Shown here piece by piece: positions 10,571 to 19,511 of a stretch of 64,000 nucleotides of DNA. The position numbers and the translations under genes were made by a program. Under the pieces are notes generated by a model, which was given only the letters and a program-made list of their open reading frames with translations, was not told where the DNA came from and did not search any database. Source of the stretch: Thraustochytrium sp. TN22 (taxonomy: Eukaryota; Sar; Bigyra; Thraustochytrida; Thraustochytriidae); NCBI GenBank assembly GCA_013306675.1, contig JABLUY010000116.1, positions 1 through 64,000 of the forward strand, read 5' to 3'. The first letter of the stretch is position 1, and each line of letters starts with the position of its first letter.

Positions 10571-12355
10571 ATGGCGGCGGGCGGGCCGAAGGAGAGCGGG
10601 TTCTCGCACCTGACGCGCGAGTCGGGCGGCATGGCGGCGGCGACGGCGTGCGAGTCGTACTTCGACAAGCTGCTGGGGAGCATCAGCGGCATGAAGGTGC
10701 TCCTGCTGGACTGGGAGACGACGGGCATCCTGTCGATGGTGATGTCGCAGACGCGCGTGCTGGAGCGCGAGGTGTTCTTGGCGACGAACCTCTCGGACGC
10801 GCGGGAGCCGATGATGCACCTCAAGGGCGTGGTGTTCTGTCGGCCGACCAAGTCGAACGTGCTGGCGCTGCGCGAGGAGCTGCGCAAGCCCAAGTACGGC
10901 GAGTACCACATCTTCTTCAGCAACGTGGTGCGACAGGACCTGCTGCAGCAGCTGGCGGACGCGGACGAGCGCGAGGTGGTCAAGCAGGTGCAGGAGGTGT
11001 ACGCGGACTTTTACGCGGTCAACAACGAGCTCTTCACGCTCAACGTGGCCAACAGCGTGCTGCACAGCGTGCCGCGCGCGCGGTGGTCGCGCGACGAGGA
11101 GGCCTCCTACTACCGCACGGTGGAGGGCGTGCTGGCGAGCCTGCTGGCGTTCAAGAAGCAACCAGTCATCCGGTATCAGCGCAACTCGGACCTGTGCCAC
11201 AACTTTGCGCGCGAGATCAAGCACCAGATGGGCCGCGAGCAGCAGCTCTTTGATTTCCGCGACGGCCAGTCCTCGCTGCTGCTGGTCGTGGACCGCCGCG
11301 ATGACCCCATCACGCCCCTGCTCACGCAGTGGACCTACCAGGCCATGGTGCACGAGCTCCTGGGTATCCGCAACAACCGGGTGAGCCTGGCCAAGGCCCC
11401 CGGCGCGGGCGCCGACATGGAGGAGGTCGTGCTCTCGCTGGCCGATCCGTTCTTTGAGACCAACATGTACACGAACTTTGGTGACCTGGCCGAGGCCGTC
11501 GCGGAGCTGCTGCAAAACTACCAACGCCAGCAAAAGACCAACCAGCAGATTGAGAGCATCGAGGACATGCAGCGCTTCGTGGAGAGCTACCCGCAGTTCA
11601 AGCAGTTCGCCACCAACGTGTCCAAGCACGTGGCCGTGGTCGGTGAGCTGGTCCGCCTCGTGAACGAGCACAAGCTCATGGAGGTCTCGCAGCTCGAGCA
11701 GGAGCTGGCCTGCACGAGCGACCATGCCACGCAGGTCGAAGAGGTCAAGGCCAAGATCCTCAGCCCCAGCATCTCGCGCCCGGACGCGCTCCGCCTCGTG
11801 CTTCTCTACGCCATTCGCTACGAGAACCACCAGGGCAACGCCATCGGCCAGCTCAAGCGGATGCTGCGCGAGAAGGGCGTGGAGGACGTGCGTATTCAGC
11901 TCATCGACCAGATGCTCGCCTACGCCGGGGCTTCCAAGCGCGGCAGTGACCTTTTCGGCGAGAGCACCCTGCTGTCCAAGAGCCTCAAGCTCGCCACGCG
12001 TGCCATCAAGGGCGTCAGCAACGTCTACACCCAGCACCAGCCGCTCCTTGCCGAGACGCTCGACAAGCTTGCCAAGGGCAAGCTTTCTGACAAGGTCTAC
12101 GCCTTTGCTGGCTCCGGCAACGCGCGCGAGAAGCCCCGCGACGTCATCGTCTTCATCATGGGCGGCGCCACCTTCGAGGAGGCCGCCGCCGTCCACCGCT
12201 TCAACGACGCCAATCCGGGCATGCGCGTCGTCATTGGCGGCTCCAGCATCCATAGCAGCAACACCTTCCTCTCCGAGCTCGCGCGTCTCGGTACCGGCGG
12301 CCTGCCCATGTCCTCCTTCCAGACATCCTCCTCGCGCGCCGGCTTTTCGCCCTGA
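10571..12355 (+). CDS. VPS45: Vacuolar protein sorting protein VPS45 (Sec1/Munc18 family)
   Basis: An SM protein that controls SNARE assembly at the trans-Golgi/endosome with syntaxin Tlg2/STX16. 594 residues against about 570 in human. An N-terminal extension of roughly 25 residues precedes YFDKLLGSISGMKVLLLDWET, the typical domain 1 opening with the D-x-x-T that meets syntaxin. SLLLVVDRRDDPITPLLTQW near residue 240 is the strongest SM signature. LKLATRAIKGVSNVYTQHQP and DVIVFIMGGATFEEAAAVH are diagnostic of VPS45 over Sly1 and Vps33. It ends with a Ser/Thr-rich tail. One uninterrupted frame; the first ATG is used. Confidence 0.95.
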   Translation: MAAGGPKESGFSHLTRESGGMAAATACESYFDKLLGSISGMKVLLLDWETTGILSMVMSQTRVLEREVFLATNLSDAREPMMHLKGVVFCRPTKSNVLALREELRKPKYGEYHIFFSNVVRQDLLQQLADADEREVVKQVQEVYADFYAVNNELFTLNVANSVLHSVPRARWSRDEEASYYRTVEGVLASLLAFKKQPVIRYQRNSDLCHNFAREIKHQMGREQQLFDFRDGQSSLLLVVDRRDDPITPLLTQWTYQAMVHELLGIRNNRVSLAKAPGAGADMEEVVLSLADPFFETNMYTNFGDLAEAVAELLQNYQRQQKTNQQIESIEDMQRFVESYPQFKQFATNVSKHVAVVGELVRLVNEHKLMEVSQLEQELACTSDHATQVEEVKAKILSPSISRPDALRLVLLYAIRYENHQGNAIGQLKRMLREKGVEDVRIQLIDQMLAYAGASKRGSDLFGESTLLSKSLKLATRAIKGVSNVYTQHQPLLAETLDKLAKGKLSDKVYAFAGSGNAREKPRDVIVFIMGGATFEEAAAVHRFNDANPGMRVVIGGSSIHSSNTFLSELARLGTGGLPMSSFQTSSSRAGFSP

Positions 12356-12770: not shown

Positions 12771-13229
12771 ATAGCCCAATCACACCTCTATGCTTACTCG
12801 TATCCGCCTACCACGCGGGGGTCCCTCGGTGACGCCCGGCACAGGGGGCACTAAAGCGTATTAAGAGGGTACTTTACTCCCGATTTGCTCCAAAAAAGTG
12901 GCCTAGAGTCTGGCGAAGTTAGTTCCGCATTCGATCAAAAACGCAGCGATGGGGCCGAGCTTGAAGAGGCCCACTCGAAGCGACCCAAGGCTCCTGCCCC
13001 CTATTCATTTTGGCCGAAGGCGTGGTGGTTAGGATGAGATGAGCTCGGCAGTTCGCCCAGAGCGGCTTTGGGGGGAGCTCGCGCGCGACTTCGTCGCGGA
13101 GCGCGCTGGAGCCGCAGGCGCTGCGGCGCGCGGCTGCAGGCGGCCCTGGCGGGTGCCTTGTGCCTGCTCTCAGCTCGCACGCCCCTGCCGCAGCGCTTGG
13201 ACGTGGAGTCGGGCCCGCACTGCGACATC

Positions 13230-13860
13230 ATGGCATCGGCGAGGCCTAACCACCGCGTGGAGGACGACAGCGACAGCGACAGCGACAGCGAGTTCGTGCC
13301 CCTGGACAAGCGGGACACAGGGGACGAAGACGAAGAAGGAGAGGAGCTTGGCGACGAGGATGCTCGTGCTGAGGCCGCTGCGCAGCAAGACTTCGAAGAC
13401 ATACTTGCGTTGGTCGACGAACCGACGCGTGGTGCGAGTGCATGTTCGAGGTCGGCCTCATTCAGCACAAGCCCGTTCCGGGGCTCGCAGTCTCGCCGGA
13501 TGGAGTCGCTCGCGTCCGGCTTCCAGGCGCGGAGTGCGACGCATCGTCAGTACTATGCAGCGTCGAGATCAAGACGCGCGTCGCGCCTGGAGGCGCGGTA
13601 GACGCACGTATCGTGAGCACCCAGATGAACACGTGGGGGACGAGACTTGGTGGAAGGCCATACCTGCCGAGCACCGCGCGCAAGTCTTGCACCAAGCTGT
13701 GGTCCTCCAAATCGATCACGTGCTCTACGTTGCTGCCAGCACGAGTTCGTGTTTGTACGCCTGCCTCGTTGAAGTGCCTCCGGACGCCCGGCTCGCCATG
13801 GAGCGCGCTCTGAAACCGTGGGCGGACAAGCTCACGACATGGGCGCACCAGAGCATCGAC
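13230..13860 (+). pseudogene. Acidic segment plus YqaJ-like nuclease segment, transposon copy 1
   Basis: The ATG at 13230 opens an acidic stretch (DDSDSDSDSEF, GDEDEEGEE) typical of transposase N-termini. Then come segments in successive different frames that read as a YqaJ/lambda-exonuclease-like fold. GLAVSPDGVARV contains the SPDG motif, VEIKTRV the E-x-K motif, and IPAEHRAQVLHQAVVLQIDH the Gln-helix that usually follows. This order (SPDG, then VEIK, then P-x-x-x-R-x-Q) is the YqaJ signature. The segment is not open in a single frame; indels or very short introns would explain this. Confidence 0.6.
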
Positions 13861-13912
13861 AGCGGGTGCGCCGCCCAAGCCACCTGCCATCTTCGGCGAG
13901 GAGGAGGGGGCG

Positions 13913-14905
13913 GTGCTGAGCTCGCACTTCCGGCTGTGGCGCGCCATGCGCAAGCTTGTCGCTCTGAAGGGGCCCATGCGGCCCGTGCATGTCATCAAGT
14001 GCTTACCGCAGGAGCTATACAACGTCGCAAAGGGCGGCGTCGACGGAAGCACACAGTACGTGGAGCAGATCACCAACACGCAGTGCATGAATCTGAGCTG
14101 CGACCAGAACATCGCGTTGCGCACGTACAAGCAGCTCGTTGTCAACGCCATCGTGGTCTACCGCTACTTACAGGCTGCGAGGAAGAGCAACCTCGAAGAC
14201 AGCGACGGGCTAAAGGCCCTCCGCGACAAGGTGAACCGCTCTGAAGCGCTCAGCACTGTCTCGTTCCGCCTCACTGTCGACATGGTCCGTCACGTCTACA
14301 GGAGCAGGCAGCTCGATACGGCGCAGGTGGAGTTCAACATGCAGCCAAGCATGCCCAAGCCCACTGGGCTCACCAGGGAAGCGGCGAGGGACCTCGTGAC
14401 CGCCGGTAAGCGCAAGCGAACCCCCGAGTTGCAGAAGTTCTTCAACCACGGCCAAGCCCGCGACATCCGCCTCGATGCCGCACTGCAACATGACTCAGAG
14501 GCAGCGGGAAAGGCATCCTTCAACGCCAACAACAAGAGGATTCCCGCCAAGCGGCTCTGCGTCATCTGCGGCAAGCAAACGCACCGTCGTTGCACCATCT
14601 GCGGTGTGCCTCTGCACGTGTTCATGAGAAAGAATGAACGCACAACCTGCTTTTCCAAGTGGCACACGCGCGTGCGCGTCGAGCCTCACGAAGGCTTCAA
14701 GAAGCGCAAGACAAACGTCAACGGAACACCTTCGCCCATTTGCCTCGATCATGTCGATTCGAGCAGCGCCAGTGCCTCGTCCGGTACCCCTACAGCGCAG
14801 AGCAGGAACGACCACGTAGCCCAAGCCAGCTACACCGACACCCCATCAAGCCATAGTTCAAGATCCTCTCGCAGCAGCCTCAGCACGAGTCCATCGTGCC
14901 CTTGA
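13913..14905 (+). CDS. PiggyBac-type transposase C-terminal module, copy 1
   Basis: An open frame of up to 330 residues. ELYNVAKGGVDGSTQYVEQI matches the piggyBac motif around the third catalytic Asp (Y-N-x-x-x-G-G-V-D). LVVNAIVVYRYLQA then matches the helix after it. A C-terminal Cys/His zinc ribbon follows with C-x2-C, C-x2-C and C-x3-H spacing, as in piggyBac Cys-rich domains. The first two catalytic Asp motifs of a full transposase were not found upstream, where the YqaJ-like segment lies. It ends in a Ser-rich tail. The true start is uncertain because this frame is probably entered from the upstream segment. Confidence 0.65.
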   Translation: MLSSHFRLWRAMRKLVALKGPMRPVHVIKCLPQELYNVAKGGVDGSTQYVEQITNTQCMNLSCDQNIALRTYKQLVVNAIVVYRYLQAARKSNLEDSDGLKALRDKVNRSEALSTVSFRLTVDMVRHVYRSRQLDTAQVEFNMQPSMPKPTGLTREAARDLVTAGKRKRTPELQKFFNHGQARDIRLDAALQHDSEAAGKASFNANNKRIPAKRLCVICGKQTHRRCTICGVPLHVFMRKNERTTCFSKWHTRVRVEPHEGFKKRKTNVNGTPSPICLDHVDSSSASASSGTPTAQSRNDHVAQASYTDTPSSHSSRSSRSSLSTSPSCP

Positions 14906-15321
14906 TGCAGCCCAAGTTGGCCTCAGCATCCGCACAGGCCAGTCGGAAGTGACCAACACTTTACGCTTCCATACAAACCCAGTAGTTGAAAGTTCCAAAA
15001 ATGATTAGAATCATGATAGCAACAGGTCAGTCGAGCGCAAGCAGGAGAGCCTATTGACGAGGGACAATAGGGCTATCCTGATTAAACTCCGTCTAGGGCG
15101 ATGGGATTGGGATAGCCCAATCCCATCGCCCTAGACGGAGTTTAATCAGGATAGCCATATTATCCCTAGTAAATCGGCTCTCCTGCTTGCGCTCGACTGA
15201 CCTGTTGCTATCATGATTCTAATCATTTTTGGAACTTTCAACTACTGGGTTTGTATGGAAGCGTAAAGTGTTGGTCACTTCCGACTGGCCTGTGCGGATG
15301 CTGAGGCCAACTTGGGCTGCA

Positions 15322-16314
15322 TCAAGGGCACGATGGACTCGTGCTGAGGCTGCTGCGAGAGGATCTTGAACTATGGCTTGATGGGGTGTCGGTGTAGCTG
15401 GCTTGGGCTACGTGGTCGTTCCTGCTCTGCGCTGTAGGGGTACCGGACGAGGCACTGGCGCTGCTCGAATCGACATGATCGAGGCAAATGGGCGAAGGTG
15501 TTCCGTTGACGTTTGTCTTGCGCTTCTTGAAGCCTTCGTGAGGCTCGACGCGCACGCGCGTGTGCCACTTGGAAAAGCAGGTTGTGCGTTCATTCTTTCT
15601 CATGAACACGTGCAGAGGCACACCGCAGATGGTGCAACGACGGTGCGTTTGCTTGCCGCAGATGACGCAGAGCCGCTTGGCGGGAATCCTCTTGTTGTTG
15701 GCGTTGAAGGATGCCTTTCCCGCTGCCTCTGAGTCATGTTGCAGTGCGGCATCGAGGCGGATGTCGCGGGCTTGGCCGTGGTTGAAGAACTTCTGCAACT
15801 CGGGGGTTCGCTTGCGCTTACCGGCGGTCACGAGGTCCCTCGCCGCTTCCCTGGTGAGCCCAGTGGGCTTGGGCATGCTTGGCTGCATGTTGAACTCCAC
15901 CTGCGCCGTATCGAGCTGCCTGCTCCTGTAGACGTGACGGACCATGTCGACAGTGAGGCGGAACGAGACAGTGCTGAGCGCTTCAGAGCGGTTCACCTTG
16001 TCGCGGAGGGCCTTTAGCCCGTCGCTGTCTTCGAGGTTGCTCTTCCTCGCAGCCTGTAAGTAGCGGTAGACCACGATGGCGTTGACAACGAGCTGCTTGT
16101 ACGTGCGCAACGCGATGTTCTGGTCGCAGCTCAGATTCATGCACTGCGTGTTGGTGATCTGCTCCACGTACTGTGTGCTTCCGTCGACGCCGCCCTTTGC
16201 GACGTTGTATAGCTCCTGCGGTAAGCACTTGATGACATGCACGGGCCGCATGGGCCCCTTCAGAGCGACAAGCTTGCGCATGGCGCGCCACAGCCGGAAG
16301 TGCGAGCTCAGCAC
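15322..16314 (-). CDS. PiggyBac-type transposase C-terminal module, copy 2
   Basis: The mirror copy of the module at 13913-14905, with an identical 330-residue translation as far as I can compare. It carries the same G-G-V-D motif and zinc ribbon. Confidence 0.65.
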   Translation of the reverse strand: MLSSHFRLWRAMRKLVALKGPMRPVHVIKCLPQELYNVAKGGVDGSTQYVEQITNTQCMNLSCDQNIALRTYKQLVVNAIVVYRYLQAARKSNLEDSDGLKALRDKVNRSEALSTVSFRLTVDMVRHVYRSRQLDTAQVEFNMQPSMPKPTGLTREAARDLVTAGKRKRTPELQKFFNHGQARDIRLDAALQHDSEAAGKASFNANNKRIPAKRLCVICGKQTHRRCTICGVPLHVFMRKNERTTCFSKWHTRVRVEPHEGFKKRKTNVNGTPSPICLDHVDSSSASASSGTPTAQSRNDHVAQASYTDTPSSHSSRSSRSSLSTSPSCP

Positions 16315-16366
16315 CGCCCCCTCCTCCTCGCCGAAGATGGCAGGTGGCTTGGGCGGCGCACCCGCT

Positions 16367-16997
16367 GTCGATGCTCTGGTGCGCCCATGTCGTGAGCTTG
16401 TCCGCCCACGGTTTCAGAGCGCGCTCCATGGCGAGCCGGGCGTCCGGAGGCACTTCAACGAGGCAGGCGTACAAACACGAACTCGTGCTGGCAGCAACGT
16501 AGAGCACGTGATCGATTTGGAGGACCACAGCTTGGTGCAAGACTTGCGCGCGGTGCTCGGCAGGTATGGCCTTCCACCAAGTCTCGTCCCCCACGTGTTC
16601 ATCTGGGTGCTCACGATACGTGCGTCTACCGCGCCTCCAGGCGCGACGCGCGTCTTGATCTCGACGCTGCATAGTACTGACGATGCGTCGCACTCCGCGC
16701 CTGGAAGCCGGACGCGAGCGACTCCATCCGGCGAGACTGCGAGCCCCGGAACGGTCTTGTGCTGAATGAGGCCGACCTCGAACATGCACTCGCACCACGC
16801 GTCGGTTCGTCGACCAACGCAAGTATGTCTTCGAAGTCTTGCTGCGCAGCGGCCTCAGCACGAGCATCCTCGTCGCCAAGCTCCTCTCCTTCTTCGTCTT
16901 CGTCCCCTGTGTCCCGCTTGTCCAGGGGCACGAACTCGCTGTCGCTGTCGCTGTCGCTGTCGTCCTCCACGCGGTGGTTAGGCCTCGCCGATGCCAT
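16367..16997 (-). pseudogene. Acidic segment plus YqaJ-like nuclease segment, transposon copy 2
   Basis: Mirror of 13230-13860 with the same frame changes and the same SPDG and VEIK motifs. One residue differs: KTVPG here against KPVPG in copy 1. Shared frame changes mean they predate the duplication, or that they are spliced out in both copies. Confidence 0.55.
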
Positions 16998-17452
16998 GAT
17001 GTCGCAGTGCGGGCCCGACTCCACGTCCAAGCGCTGCGGCAGGGGCGTGCGAGCTGAGAGCAGGCACAAGGCACCCGCCAGGGCCGCCTGCAGCCGCGCG
17101 CCGCAGCGCCTGCGGCTCCAGCGCGCTCCGCGACGAAGTCGCGCGCGAGCTCCCCCCAAAGCCGCTCTGGGCGAACTGCCGAGCTCATCTCATCCTAACC
17201 ACCACGCCTTCGGCCAAAATGAATAGGGGGCAGGAGCCTTGGGTCGCTTCGAGTGGGCCTCTTCAAGCTCGGCCCCATCGCTGCGTTTTTGATCGAATGC
17301 GGAACTAACTTCGCCAGACTCTAGGCCACTTTTTTGGAGCAAATCGGGAGTAAAGTACCCTCTTAATACGCTTTAGTGCCCCCTGTGCCGGGCGTCACCG
17401 AGGGACCCCCGCGTGGTAGGCGGATACGAGTAAGCATAGAGGTGTGATTGGG

Positions 17453-17501
17453 ATATGGCTATCCTGATTAAACTCCGTCTAGGGCGATGGGATTGGGATA
17501 T
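17453..17501 (+). repeat. Solo 41-bp transposon end flanked by ATAT
   Basis: Bases 17457-17497 repeat the last 41 bases of the transposon (GGCTATCC to GATTGGG). They are bracketed by ATAT at 17453-17456 and 17498-17501. The same module ends copy 1 (15071-15111), bracketed by ATAG on both sides, and copy 2 (15116-15156, inverted). Confidence 0.8.
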
Positions 17502-17941: not shown

Positions 17942-19009
17942 TTATTTCACAAACGGAAGCGGCTCTGTCACGGTGACATTGCCGCCAGAGAGCACCACGC
18001 CGATGCGCTTCGCGTCAGGGTGCGACGCGAGAAAATTCGAGGCGAAGGCGCTTGAGAGCATGGCCGCGACGCCGACGGCCGCGGATGGCTCGATGACGAT
18101 CTTCATGCGCTCAAACACCAGTCTCATGGCGTCCACGATCTCGTCCTCAGACACGGTGAGCACCTCGTCGACCAGGTCGCGCACCACGGGCCACGTGTTG
18201 CTGCCCAAGGTCGTGCGCAGGCCGTCCGCAACGGTTGCGGGCACCAGGCCATCTCGGTGGCCCTGCAGCTCGCCGCTCGCCTTGGAACGCGCTGCATCGT
18301 CTGCCAGCGCCGGCTCCGCCGCGATGATGCAGGTCTGCGGGCTCAGCGCGCGCAGCGCCACGGCAGCGCCAGACAGCAGACCGCCGCCCCCGACCGGGAC
18401 GATGACGACGTCCAGCGGGTCGCCTTGGATCTGCGCCCAGAACTCTGCCATGAGCGTGCCCTGACCCGCCATGACGAGCGGATCGTTGGACGGATGCACC
18501 TCCAGGGCGCCGGTCTGCTGCGCGATCTCCGCCGTGCGCTCGGCGCGTGCCGCCGCGTCCACCTCCTCGATGCTGGCCCCGTAGTCACGCATGGCGTCCA
18601 CCTTGGCGCGCGGCGCGCCTTTGGGGACAACGATGGTCACGGGCGCGCCGCGCAGCCGGCCGGCCAGCGCCAGCGCCTGGCCGTGGTTGCCTGAGCTGTG
18701 CGTGACGAAGCCGGCGGGCGGCGCCTCCGCCTGCGCGAAGACCGCGTTGCAGGCGCCGCGGAATTTGAAGGCGCCCACCTTCTGAAAGTTCTCACATTTG
18801 AAGAAGACCTCACCGGCGCCCTCGCGCCCGAACACCCTGGCTGCCAACGTCGAGCTCGTCAGCACGGGCGTTCGCTTCGCGTGCGGCGCCACGCGTCGCG
18901 CCGCAGCCGCCACATCCGCCGCGGTGATGGCCTGCGCGCGGCTGCCCACAGCAACCCGCGCGGCCGCCGCTTCCAGCGCTGCTGCGCCCGCAAGCAGCGG
19001 GTCCGCCAT
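17942..19009 (-). CDS. SRR: Serine racemase-like PLP enzyme
   Basis: A fold-type II PLP enzyme, expected to racemise L-serine to D-serine and to eliminate water from serine. 355 residues from the ATG at 19009; a TTG further out was not used. The PLP lysine is Lys82 in VGAFKFRGA. THSSGNHGQALALAG binds the substrate carboxylate and PVGGGGLLSG is the phosphate loop. NTWPVVRDLVDEVLTVSEDEI and the end LSGGNVTV align closely with animal serine racemases; the Ser/Gly pattern distinguishes it less clearly from biosynthetic threonine deaminase, which has an extra C-terminal ACT-like domain absent here. No clear targeting peptide. Threonine/serine dehydratase is the main alternative. Confidence 0.88.
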   Translation of the reverse strand: MADPLLAGAAALEAAAARVAVGSRAQAITAADVAAAARRVAPHAKRTPVLTSSTLAARVFGREGAGEVFFKCENFQKVGAFKFRGACNAVFAQAEAPPAGFVTHSSGNHGQALALAGRLRGAPVTIVVPKGAPRAKVDAMRDYGASIEEVDAAARAERTAEIAQQTGALEVHPSNDPLVMAGQGTLMAEFWAQIQGDPLDVVIVPVGGGGLLSGAAVALRALSPQTCIIAAEPALADDAARSKASGELQGHRDGLVPATVADGLRTTLGSNTWPVVRDLVDEVLTVSEDEIVDAMRLVFERMKIVIEPSAAVGVAAMLSSAFASNFLASHPDAKRIGVVLSGGNVTVTEPLPFVK

Positions 19010-19511
19010 GCCCCAGTGGCGCCGCGGTGATTCTTCACGTTGGATTTGGTTTTGCTTGCTCTGTCTCAAGGCTTGCGTTTGCGGCGGAAAGCAGCATCTT
19101 CAAGTTCTAACCTTGACCCTCCCTTTGCGCGCCCGTCGGCGGCTACGTCGAGCGACTCGGGCCGCCAAGGCCTGTGCCAGCAAGGCATTGGCTCCAAATG
19201 GTCGCGCGAACGTCAAGCTGGCTCAAGAGCATGTGGCTATCAGTCACAGTCAGTGTCCGAGGAGTCACGGTCGTAAGCGAGTCACTGTGATGTGTCACTA
19301 CAGTCCCCATGCAGGTTCCCGCATTTGCACACTGCAGCATGGGAATGCGAACCTTCGCGTGTGGACGCATGTGGACACCGCGGATACCGCGCCACGGCGC
19401 GGTTTGACTCGTCGCGCCGAGCTCCGCGCAGCAGCAGGCAGCTCTGGATGCTCCGCAGCTCGCGCGACCGAGCAGACCCCCAAAACTAAGCTGGAACCGC
19501 AGCGCAGCAGG
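19010..19511. promoter_or_regulatory. Divergent spacer, serine racemase and BART gene
   Basis: 502 bases between opposite starts. It contains TTCAAGTT at 19099-19106, 89 bases outside the SRR start, and several GTCAC repeats at about 19240-19300. No gene seen. Confidence 0.5.

Follow-up and report, generated by a model that had tools for sequence, protein, structure and literature searches.

Transposons of the piggyBac type have CCC tips, and one piggyBac-like element, Teratorn, is reportedly fused with a herpesvirus in a 180-kb composite that likewise brings together a piggyBac-like element and other DNA-handling genes, although it is not known to have a domain nested inside the transposase. 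The piggyBac transposase has three catalytic aspartates (D268, D346, and D447, the last preceded by G444 and G445) and an insertion domain (residues 372-433) between the second and third catalytic residues, which contacts hairpin and target DNA; other RNase H-fold transposases carry insertions at the same place (PMC7351741). ISL2EU, a DDE transposon of the PHIS superfamily, resembles the elements described here in encoding a YqaJ exonuclease, but does so in a separate second open reading frame (ORF); its transposase is of the Harbinger type and carries THAP or HTH, and its tips usually start with GG (PMC4482050 and PMC9179366); the role of the second ORF is described as unknown in the former. 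KolobokP is a further example of a transposon that adds a second nuclease, combining a DDD/E transposase with a His-Me finger nuclease (PMC9587614).

The window that we analyzed is a 64,000-nucleotide stretch of the genome of Thraustochytrium sp. TN22 (assembly GCA_013306675.1, 37.9 Mb in 453 contigs), namely positions 1 to 64,000 of the forward strand of contig JABLUY010000116.1, which is labeled C18 in our analysis. An earlier note on this DNA had drawn attention to a transposon at 13230-14905; the full element (12775-15111) exceeds this originally reported span (Table 1). The terminal inverted repeats are 7 bp long (CCCAATC), and the tips of the element are CCC...GGG. Twenty loci were fetched, the window's own two copies among them; 18 of these allowed both ends to be located, and all 18 elements are 2337 bp long. 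Identical 4-bp flanks are present at 14 of the 18 (12 ATAT and two ATAG), and the remaining four have unequal flanks, drawn from ATAT, CTAT, and ATAA.

In a three-frame translation of 12775-15115, all of the motifs that the earlier note had read are present in the order it gave. After an acidic N-terminal piece that starts at 13230 in a different frame, SPDG (13493-13504) and VEIK (13562-13573) share one frame, PAEHRAQVLH (13663-13692, read as P-x-x-x-R-x-Q-V-L-H) is in another, and GGVD (14033-14044) and the zinc motif CVIC...CTIC...H...C...H (14558-14665) are in the SPDG/VEIK frame again, which continues to 14905. The regions with the first two catalytic aspartates (D1 and D2), which the note had not found, are indeed missing from this copy, having been lost with an internal deletion of 1771 bp. 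The window sequence by itself proves little, because none of its three pieces scanned against Pfam gives a meaningful match, a single zf-RING hit having an E value of 0.29.

Table 1. Coordinates of the element and its parts in the window
Feature	Position	Strand	Basis or remark
Nonautonomous element, copy 1	12775..15111	+	2337 bp, ends CCCAATCAC...CGATGGGATTGGG; 20 fetched loci
Target site duplication ATAG, left	12771..12774
Target site duplication ATAG, right	15112..15115		Same four bases also flank copy 2
Remnant of transposase N-terminus (acidic, MASARPNHR...)	13230..13426	+	Frame open to 13601; identical start in long-copy protein P0004
Junction of 1771-bp internal deletion	13424..13432	+	blastn against long copies, and junction sequences
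Rear part of YqaJ-like nuclease domain	13433..13848	+	Alignment to relatives; hhalign of family domain with YqaJ references
Site of 19-bp deletion relative to long copy, shifting the frame inside the YqaJ part	13625..13642	+
Second frame change	13849..13880	+	Shared with long copy C109 but not with relatives C239, C232, and C151
Transposase C-terminal part (GGVD with third Asp; cysteine-rich zinc domain)	13880..14905	+	Motifs, alignment, and piggyBat tail match
Copy 2 of same element, tail-to-tail with copy 1	15116..17452	-	Six differences from copy 1
41-bp remnant of the 3' tip of a further copy	17457..17497	+	ATAT on both sides

Our preferred reading, to which we assign a probability of roughly 0.8 from the sequence comparisons described below, is that the window carries a recently amplified, nonautonomous deletion copy, one of 112, whose parent is a piggyBac-like transposon with a YqaJ-type domain between the second and third catalytic aspartates (D2 and D3). 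The larger protein was first suggested by a related locus on C48, where a related N-terminus is joined directly to a related tail, so that both seemed to belong to one longer product; C48 is itself another deletion derivative. With its N-terminal 293 residues as query, four longer copies were found (on C109, C81, C394, and C33), with an open frame of 998 residues in the first three and one stop in the C33 copy. The C109 copy, the one of the four that was read end to end, is 4127 bp long and has ATAT on both sides. As the parent element, it carries an acidic N-terminus, a zinc-knuckle-like motif, D1, D2, the YqaJ domain, GGVD with D3, and a C-terminal zinc domain. As a minor variation, the zinc-knuckle-like motif of the C394 copy has one Cys changed.

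Relative to C109, the window copy is without 1771 bp and 19 bp at the two deletion sites, sizes that were derived from alignments, junction sequences, and total lengths. The 1771-bp segment comprises the zinc-knuckle-like motif, both D1 and D2, and the front portion of YqaJ, and has GCGTGG at both of its edges in the long copy. Both deletion-junction words are present in all 20 short-copy loci examined and are absent from C109. Judged by these sequence features, the window copy is an ordinary internal-deletion derivative of a longer element, and what had been a puzzling chimera in a short repeat was explained once the longer copies had been found.

All of the parts are present in one uninterrupted frame in three relatives, on C239 (1079 residues, P0001, in an open frame of 1213), C232 (1164 residues, P0002, in an open frame of 1248), and C151 (1227 residues). 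The domain order is an N-terminus with a zinc-knuckle-like motif (not seen in C151), D1, D2, the YqaJ domain, the D3 motif, and the zinc domain. The D1-D2 spacing is 78 residues in C239 and C109, 72 in C232, and 68 in C151; D2 and D3 are separated by 458 (C239), 470 (C232), and 587 (C151) residues. At D3, C239 and the window family have a KGGVD turn, C151 has DCVDD, and C232 has ASVDE, and the putative zinc-ligand Cys and His residues are invariant in four family members. C239 has the full set of catalytic residues, as does C109 by alignment, although D3 of C109 is in another frame; C232 has Lys at D2 and has lost several YqaJ residues, and C151 keeps D1, D2, and D3 and has lost the Glu of E-x-K. 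The predicted nuclease activity is therefore not conserved across the family. The long open frames of C232 and C151, together with the loss of some catalytic residues, may reflect domestication. A further relative (C11:135075-137015) matches C232 at 27% identity over residues 479-1134 and lies inside an open frame of 3580 residues.

Because the D2-D3 span holds the YqaJ domain in these relatives and the insertion domain at 372-433 in piggyBac, the nuclease domain lies between D2 and D3, in the insertion-domain region; its exact placement relative to the piggyBac insertion domain is something that we infer. The proposal that the YqaJ and piggyBac parts belong to one composite protein is thus borne out by C239, C232, and C151, where related copies have the nuclease and zinc parts in a single frame, but the idea that the nuclease replaces much of the transposase core is not, as the long copies keep D1 and D2. 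The other possibility raised at the time, an accessory protein mobilized by a full transposase elsewhere, finds no support, all parts sharing one frame in three relatives. Nor did intact relatives turn out to encode a standard transposase without the nuclease; the longer relatives carry the nuclease segment.

The reading frame of the long copies is less simple than that of these relatives. The second frame change (Table 1) has the same context in all 20 short-copy loci examined and in C109, and equal open-frame lengths suggest that C81 and C394 share the frame state of C109. With a frame change before D3, no subfamily copy examined encodes one uninterrupted protein that includes D3. Between shared flanking residues, the window has 82 bases at this point and C239 has 84, so that there is no room for an intron at 13849-13880. 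Introns, proposed in the earlier note as a means of joining the parts, were consequently rejected, and are not needed: the first frame change is the 19-bp deletion and the second leaves no space for one. The element is flanked by two long open frames without interruption (10571-12355 and 17942-19069), both host-gene-like, which speak mildly against poor sequence quality. The D3 part of the long copies may depend on a programmed frameshift, may be a founder defect rescued in trans, or may reflect a systematic sequence error.

The frame change before D3 in C109 also lends some weight to a different account, that the long copies are themselves inactive and that long and short copies alike are moved by another member of the family, for example C239. 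D1, D2, and D3 are all in a continuous frame in both C239 and C151, but the tail of C239 is only 40-45% identical to that of the window family, and the limited flank of C239 that was searched did not contain matching terminal repeats. We regard this as possible, though on balance somewhat unlikely.

Kinship of the transposase with piggyBac is probable from several comparisons. A reference profile of three genes of the same genome with above-cut-off Pfam piggyBac matches (C398, C16, and C76) aligns with the family core in hhalign (P = 0.0014; score, 36.2; best of 200 shuffles, 24.1; negative control, P = 0.28), the alignment extending up to D1; against the tail, the same profile gives no match (P = 0.47). 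Among the four cores, Pfam DDE_Tnp_1_7 (cut-off, 22.4 bits) matches one, that of C151, below threshold (E = 0.0023; 17.8 bits, or 19.1 in the genome scan), and the C151 core in turn matches C109 at an E value of 6.9e-7. C151 is also the fourth Pfam piggyBac match of the genome, a family relative that carries YqaJ. For the tail profile, the best PDB match is the C-terminal zinc domain of piggyBat (residues 514-574; E = 0.09); Pfam zf-Tnp_2 (PF13842) gives no match to the family. The order of the three catalytic aspartates, the D1-D2 spacing of 78, the GGVD turn, the C-terminal cysteine-rich zinc domain, and the 4-bp duplications are all likenesses to the piggyBac superfamily, as represented by Trichoplusia ni (T. 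ni) piggyBac and piggyBat (PMC7351741). The family departs from piggyBac in using ATAT and not TTAA, in its D2-D3 distances (458, 470, and 587, versus 101 in piggyBac), in having a YqaJ domain nested between these two residues, in the zinc-knuckle-like N-terminal motif, and in the 7-bp inverted repeats.

Some of these departures would fit a DDD core from another IS4-like superfamily, sister to piggyBac but outside it, with which it would share the zinc domain and a GGVD-like turn. The ATAT target (TTAA is absent; the duplications are ATAT in 12 and ATAG in two of 18 copies) and the 7-bp inverted repeats point that way, as do the Pfam scores, in which DDE_Tnp_1 (IS4), itself under its cut-off, reaches an E value of 0.0013 on C239 and 0.00048 at best, matching two of the four cores versus one for DDE_Tnp_1_7; moreover, the core profile matched no transposase in the PDB up to an E value of 10. 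Against this stand the D1-D2 spacing, GGVD, the CCC tips, the 4-bp duplication, the tail match to piggyBat, and the alignment of the same-genome piggyBac genes up to D1, and we think such an origin unlikely.

C398, C16, and C76 were rejected as parents of the element. They are neither among the matches of the Pfam YqaJ scan, a scan that misses the true family too, nor among the matches listed for a P0002 search (the best 40 of 260 scored). These loci (L022, L023, and L024, respectively) are long genes whose catalytic positions appear degenerate by eye, as in domesticated transposases. Elsewhere in the genome, C340:8446-8631 and C436:51299-51484 have subthreshold matches to the piggyBac zinc ribbon (E of about 0.015); the frames that hold them are 1404 and 485 residues long, respectively.

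The identification of the D2-D3 insert as YqaJ-like (lambda-exonuclease-like) is well supported by profile comparison and motif order. A reference profile of eight proteins, seven phage exonucleases and the C78 protein of the same genome, matches the four-member domain alignment in hhalign with P = 8.2e-5 and a score of 37.8; none of 200 column shuffles reaches this score (best, 21.9), and two negative controls, taken from elsewhere in these proteins, yielded P values of 0.14 and 0.73. The motifs GL..H...GL..SPDG, E-x-K, and Q occur in order in the family alignment, and the ordered set (G..NE, SPDG, E-x-K, and Q) is complete in C109 and C239 and degenerate in C232 and C151. The best PDB sequence match is twice the lambda-type exonuclease 3syy, at E values of 0.12 with the whole-protein profile and 0.03 with the domain profile. 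The SPDG, E-x-K, and Q order and the profile match are thus shared with phage YqaJ/lambda-type exonucleases, from which the family domain differs in being embedded in a transposase, in falling below the Pfam cut-off, and in having lost catalytic residues in two of four members.

Single-sequence scores are more equivocal, and would be compatible with a long lineage-specific insertion between D2 and D3 that resembles YqaJ by chance. Pfam YqaJ (PF09588; curated cut-off, 22 bits) matches one of four members, C109, at a subthreshold 17.7 bits (E = 0.0044), and is outscored by a spurious SgrT match present in three of the four (E = 0.00052). The genome scan with Pfam YqaJ matches none of the transposon family, only the separate C78 gene, and the family domain compared with the C78 protein alone gives a weak match (probability, 5%; P = 0.0075) that is out of register after SPDG; the degenerate motifs of C232 and C151 could be read in the same way. 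Nonetheless, with the hhalign score beyond all shuffles, clean controls, motifs in order, and a lambda-type exonuclease as best PDB match twice, we consider chance resemblance improbable, and a chance origin of the motif order is unlikely in particular because C239, C232, and C151 each preserve that order within a single frame and it has profile-profile support. The Pfam check proposed in the earlier note therefore had a divided outcome: the single-sequence profiles are subthreshold, which by itself is contrary to the assignment, whereas both family assignments are backed by the profile-profile comparisons and by the order of the motifs. The C78 gene (C78:69347-69727; L001) has a YqaJ domain above the Pfam cut-off and resembles phage exonucleases; as a separate gene without element ends, it was rejected as the source of the nuclease part.

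Short copies are numerous and strikingly uniform. A nucleotide search of the genome gives at least 48 matches, 44 of them long and near-identical and four of 34 bases (the best 40 of 120 candidates having been scored). With the C-terminal frame as protein query there are at least 123 matches, seven divergent and 116 at 98-100% identity (one of these partial, residues 2-235); four of the 116 belong to the longer copies, leaving at least 112 short copies, one partial. A separate N-terminal search gives 112 short-type matches among at least 126, and all of these copy counts are lower bounds. Pairwise comparison of 18 short copies shows no difference at all in 120 of the 153 pairs and at most six differences in the others. 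From this near-identity, which shows the youth of the copies and not selection, the amplification burst of the short copies is evidently recent. Of the 112 listed short copies, 111 keep the C-terminal frame open (363 amino acids, stop-free) and one is partial, and this is what could be said for the notion that a window-type copy encodes a working composite, with the nuclease replacing the core and the parts joined by introns or frameshifts; with D1, D2, and the YqaJ front deleted, the YqaJ frame broken by the 19-bp deletion, no intron space at the second frame change, and near-identity that reflects youth and not selection, this is very improbable.

If the preferred reading of a piggyBac-like parent with a nested YqaJ-type domain is correct, transposase from the long copies or from a relative would move the short copies in trans. 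The element would be excised and integrated as in piggyBac, being cut at its CCC/GGG tips and joined to ATAT instead of TTAA. Carried by the transposase itself, the nuclease would be delivered to the site of cutting, where the predicted nuclease domain may trim broken DNA ends, whether of the donor or of the target; as a guess, trimming of donor ends might favor repair from a template. A fuller scheme, in which excision of the element and trimming of broken DNA ends are the work of a single protein, steering donor-site repair to recopying of the element, with D3 supplied by programmed frameshifting that limits dose, we view as doubtful.

As far as the searched literature and collections reach, a YqaJ domain nested between D2 and D3 of a piggyBac-like transposase is new, in keeping with the view of the earlier note that the combination is not an established family. 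No fusion of YqaJ with piggyBac or another transposase is mentioned in excerpts of papers on YqaJ with piggyBac or a transposase, among them PMC4482050, PMC9179366, PMC7826175, PMC13289751, and PMC11403445. Scans of viral contigs and of genome contigs, and a tblastn search of phages, yielded no relative; as the sequences covered come from viruses or prokaryotes, the negative result says little about how widely the family is spread. Unlike in ISL2EU, YqaJ is not a separate ORF here, the parts being in one frame in C239, C232, and C151, and a whole exonuclease in the D2-D3 region would unite two DNA-processing activities that belong to separate proteins in ISL2EU. The family thereby offers a system for testing the role of a YqaJ protein in transposons.

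The copies are also clustered. Fifty-one of the 116 lie within 6 kb of another copy, forming 28 neighbor pairs, whereas in a random control for clustering within this distance (116 points, 500 trials) the mean was 2.1 and no trial exceeded 7. The spacings are discrete: 2296 (seven pairs), 2341 (four), 2346 (two), 2324 (one), and 4131 (one) for direct pairs, 1364 (six), 1370 (one), and 1409 (two) for tail-to-tail pairs, and 3318 (two) and 3578 (two) for head-to-head pairs. A spacing of 2341 corresponds to one element plus 4 bases and 2296 is 45 fewer, and the sole ATAT within copy 2 sits 45 bases from its 3' end. These exact spacings would be explained if elements had inserted into an ATAT located either at the 3' end of another copy or 45 bp within it, and the short 3'-tip remnant at the far side of copy 2 (Table 1), with its ATAT flanks, is a sign of such insertion into another copy; segmental duplication is also a possible source of the array spacings. 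The arrangement seen at this remnant tip recurs at loci L014 and L015.
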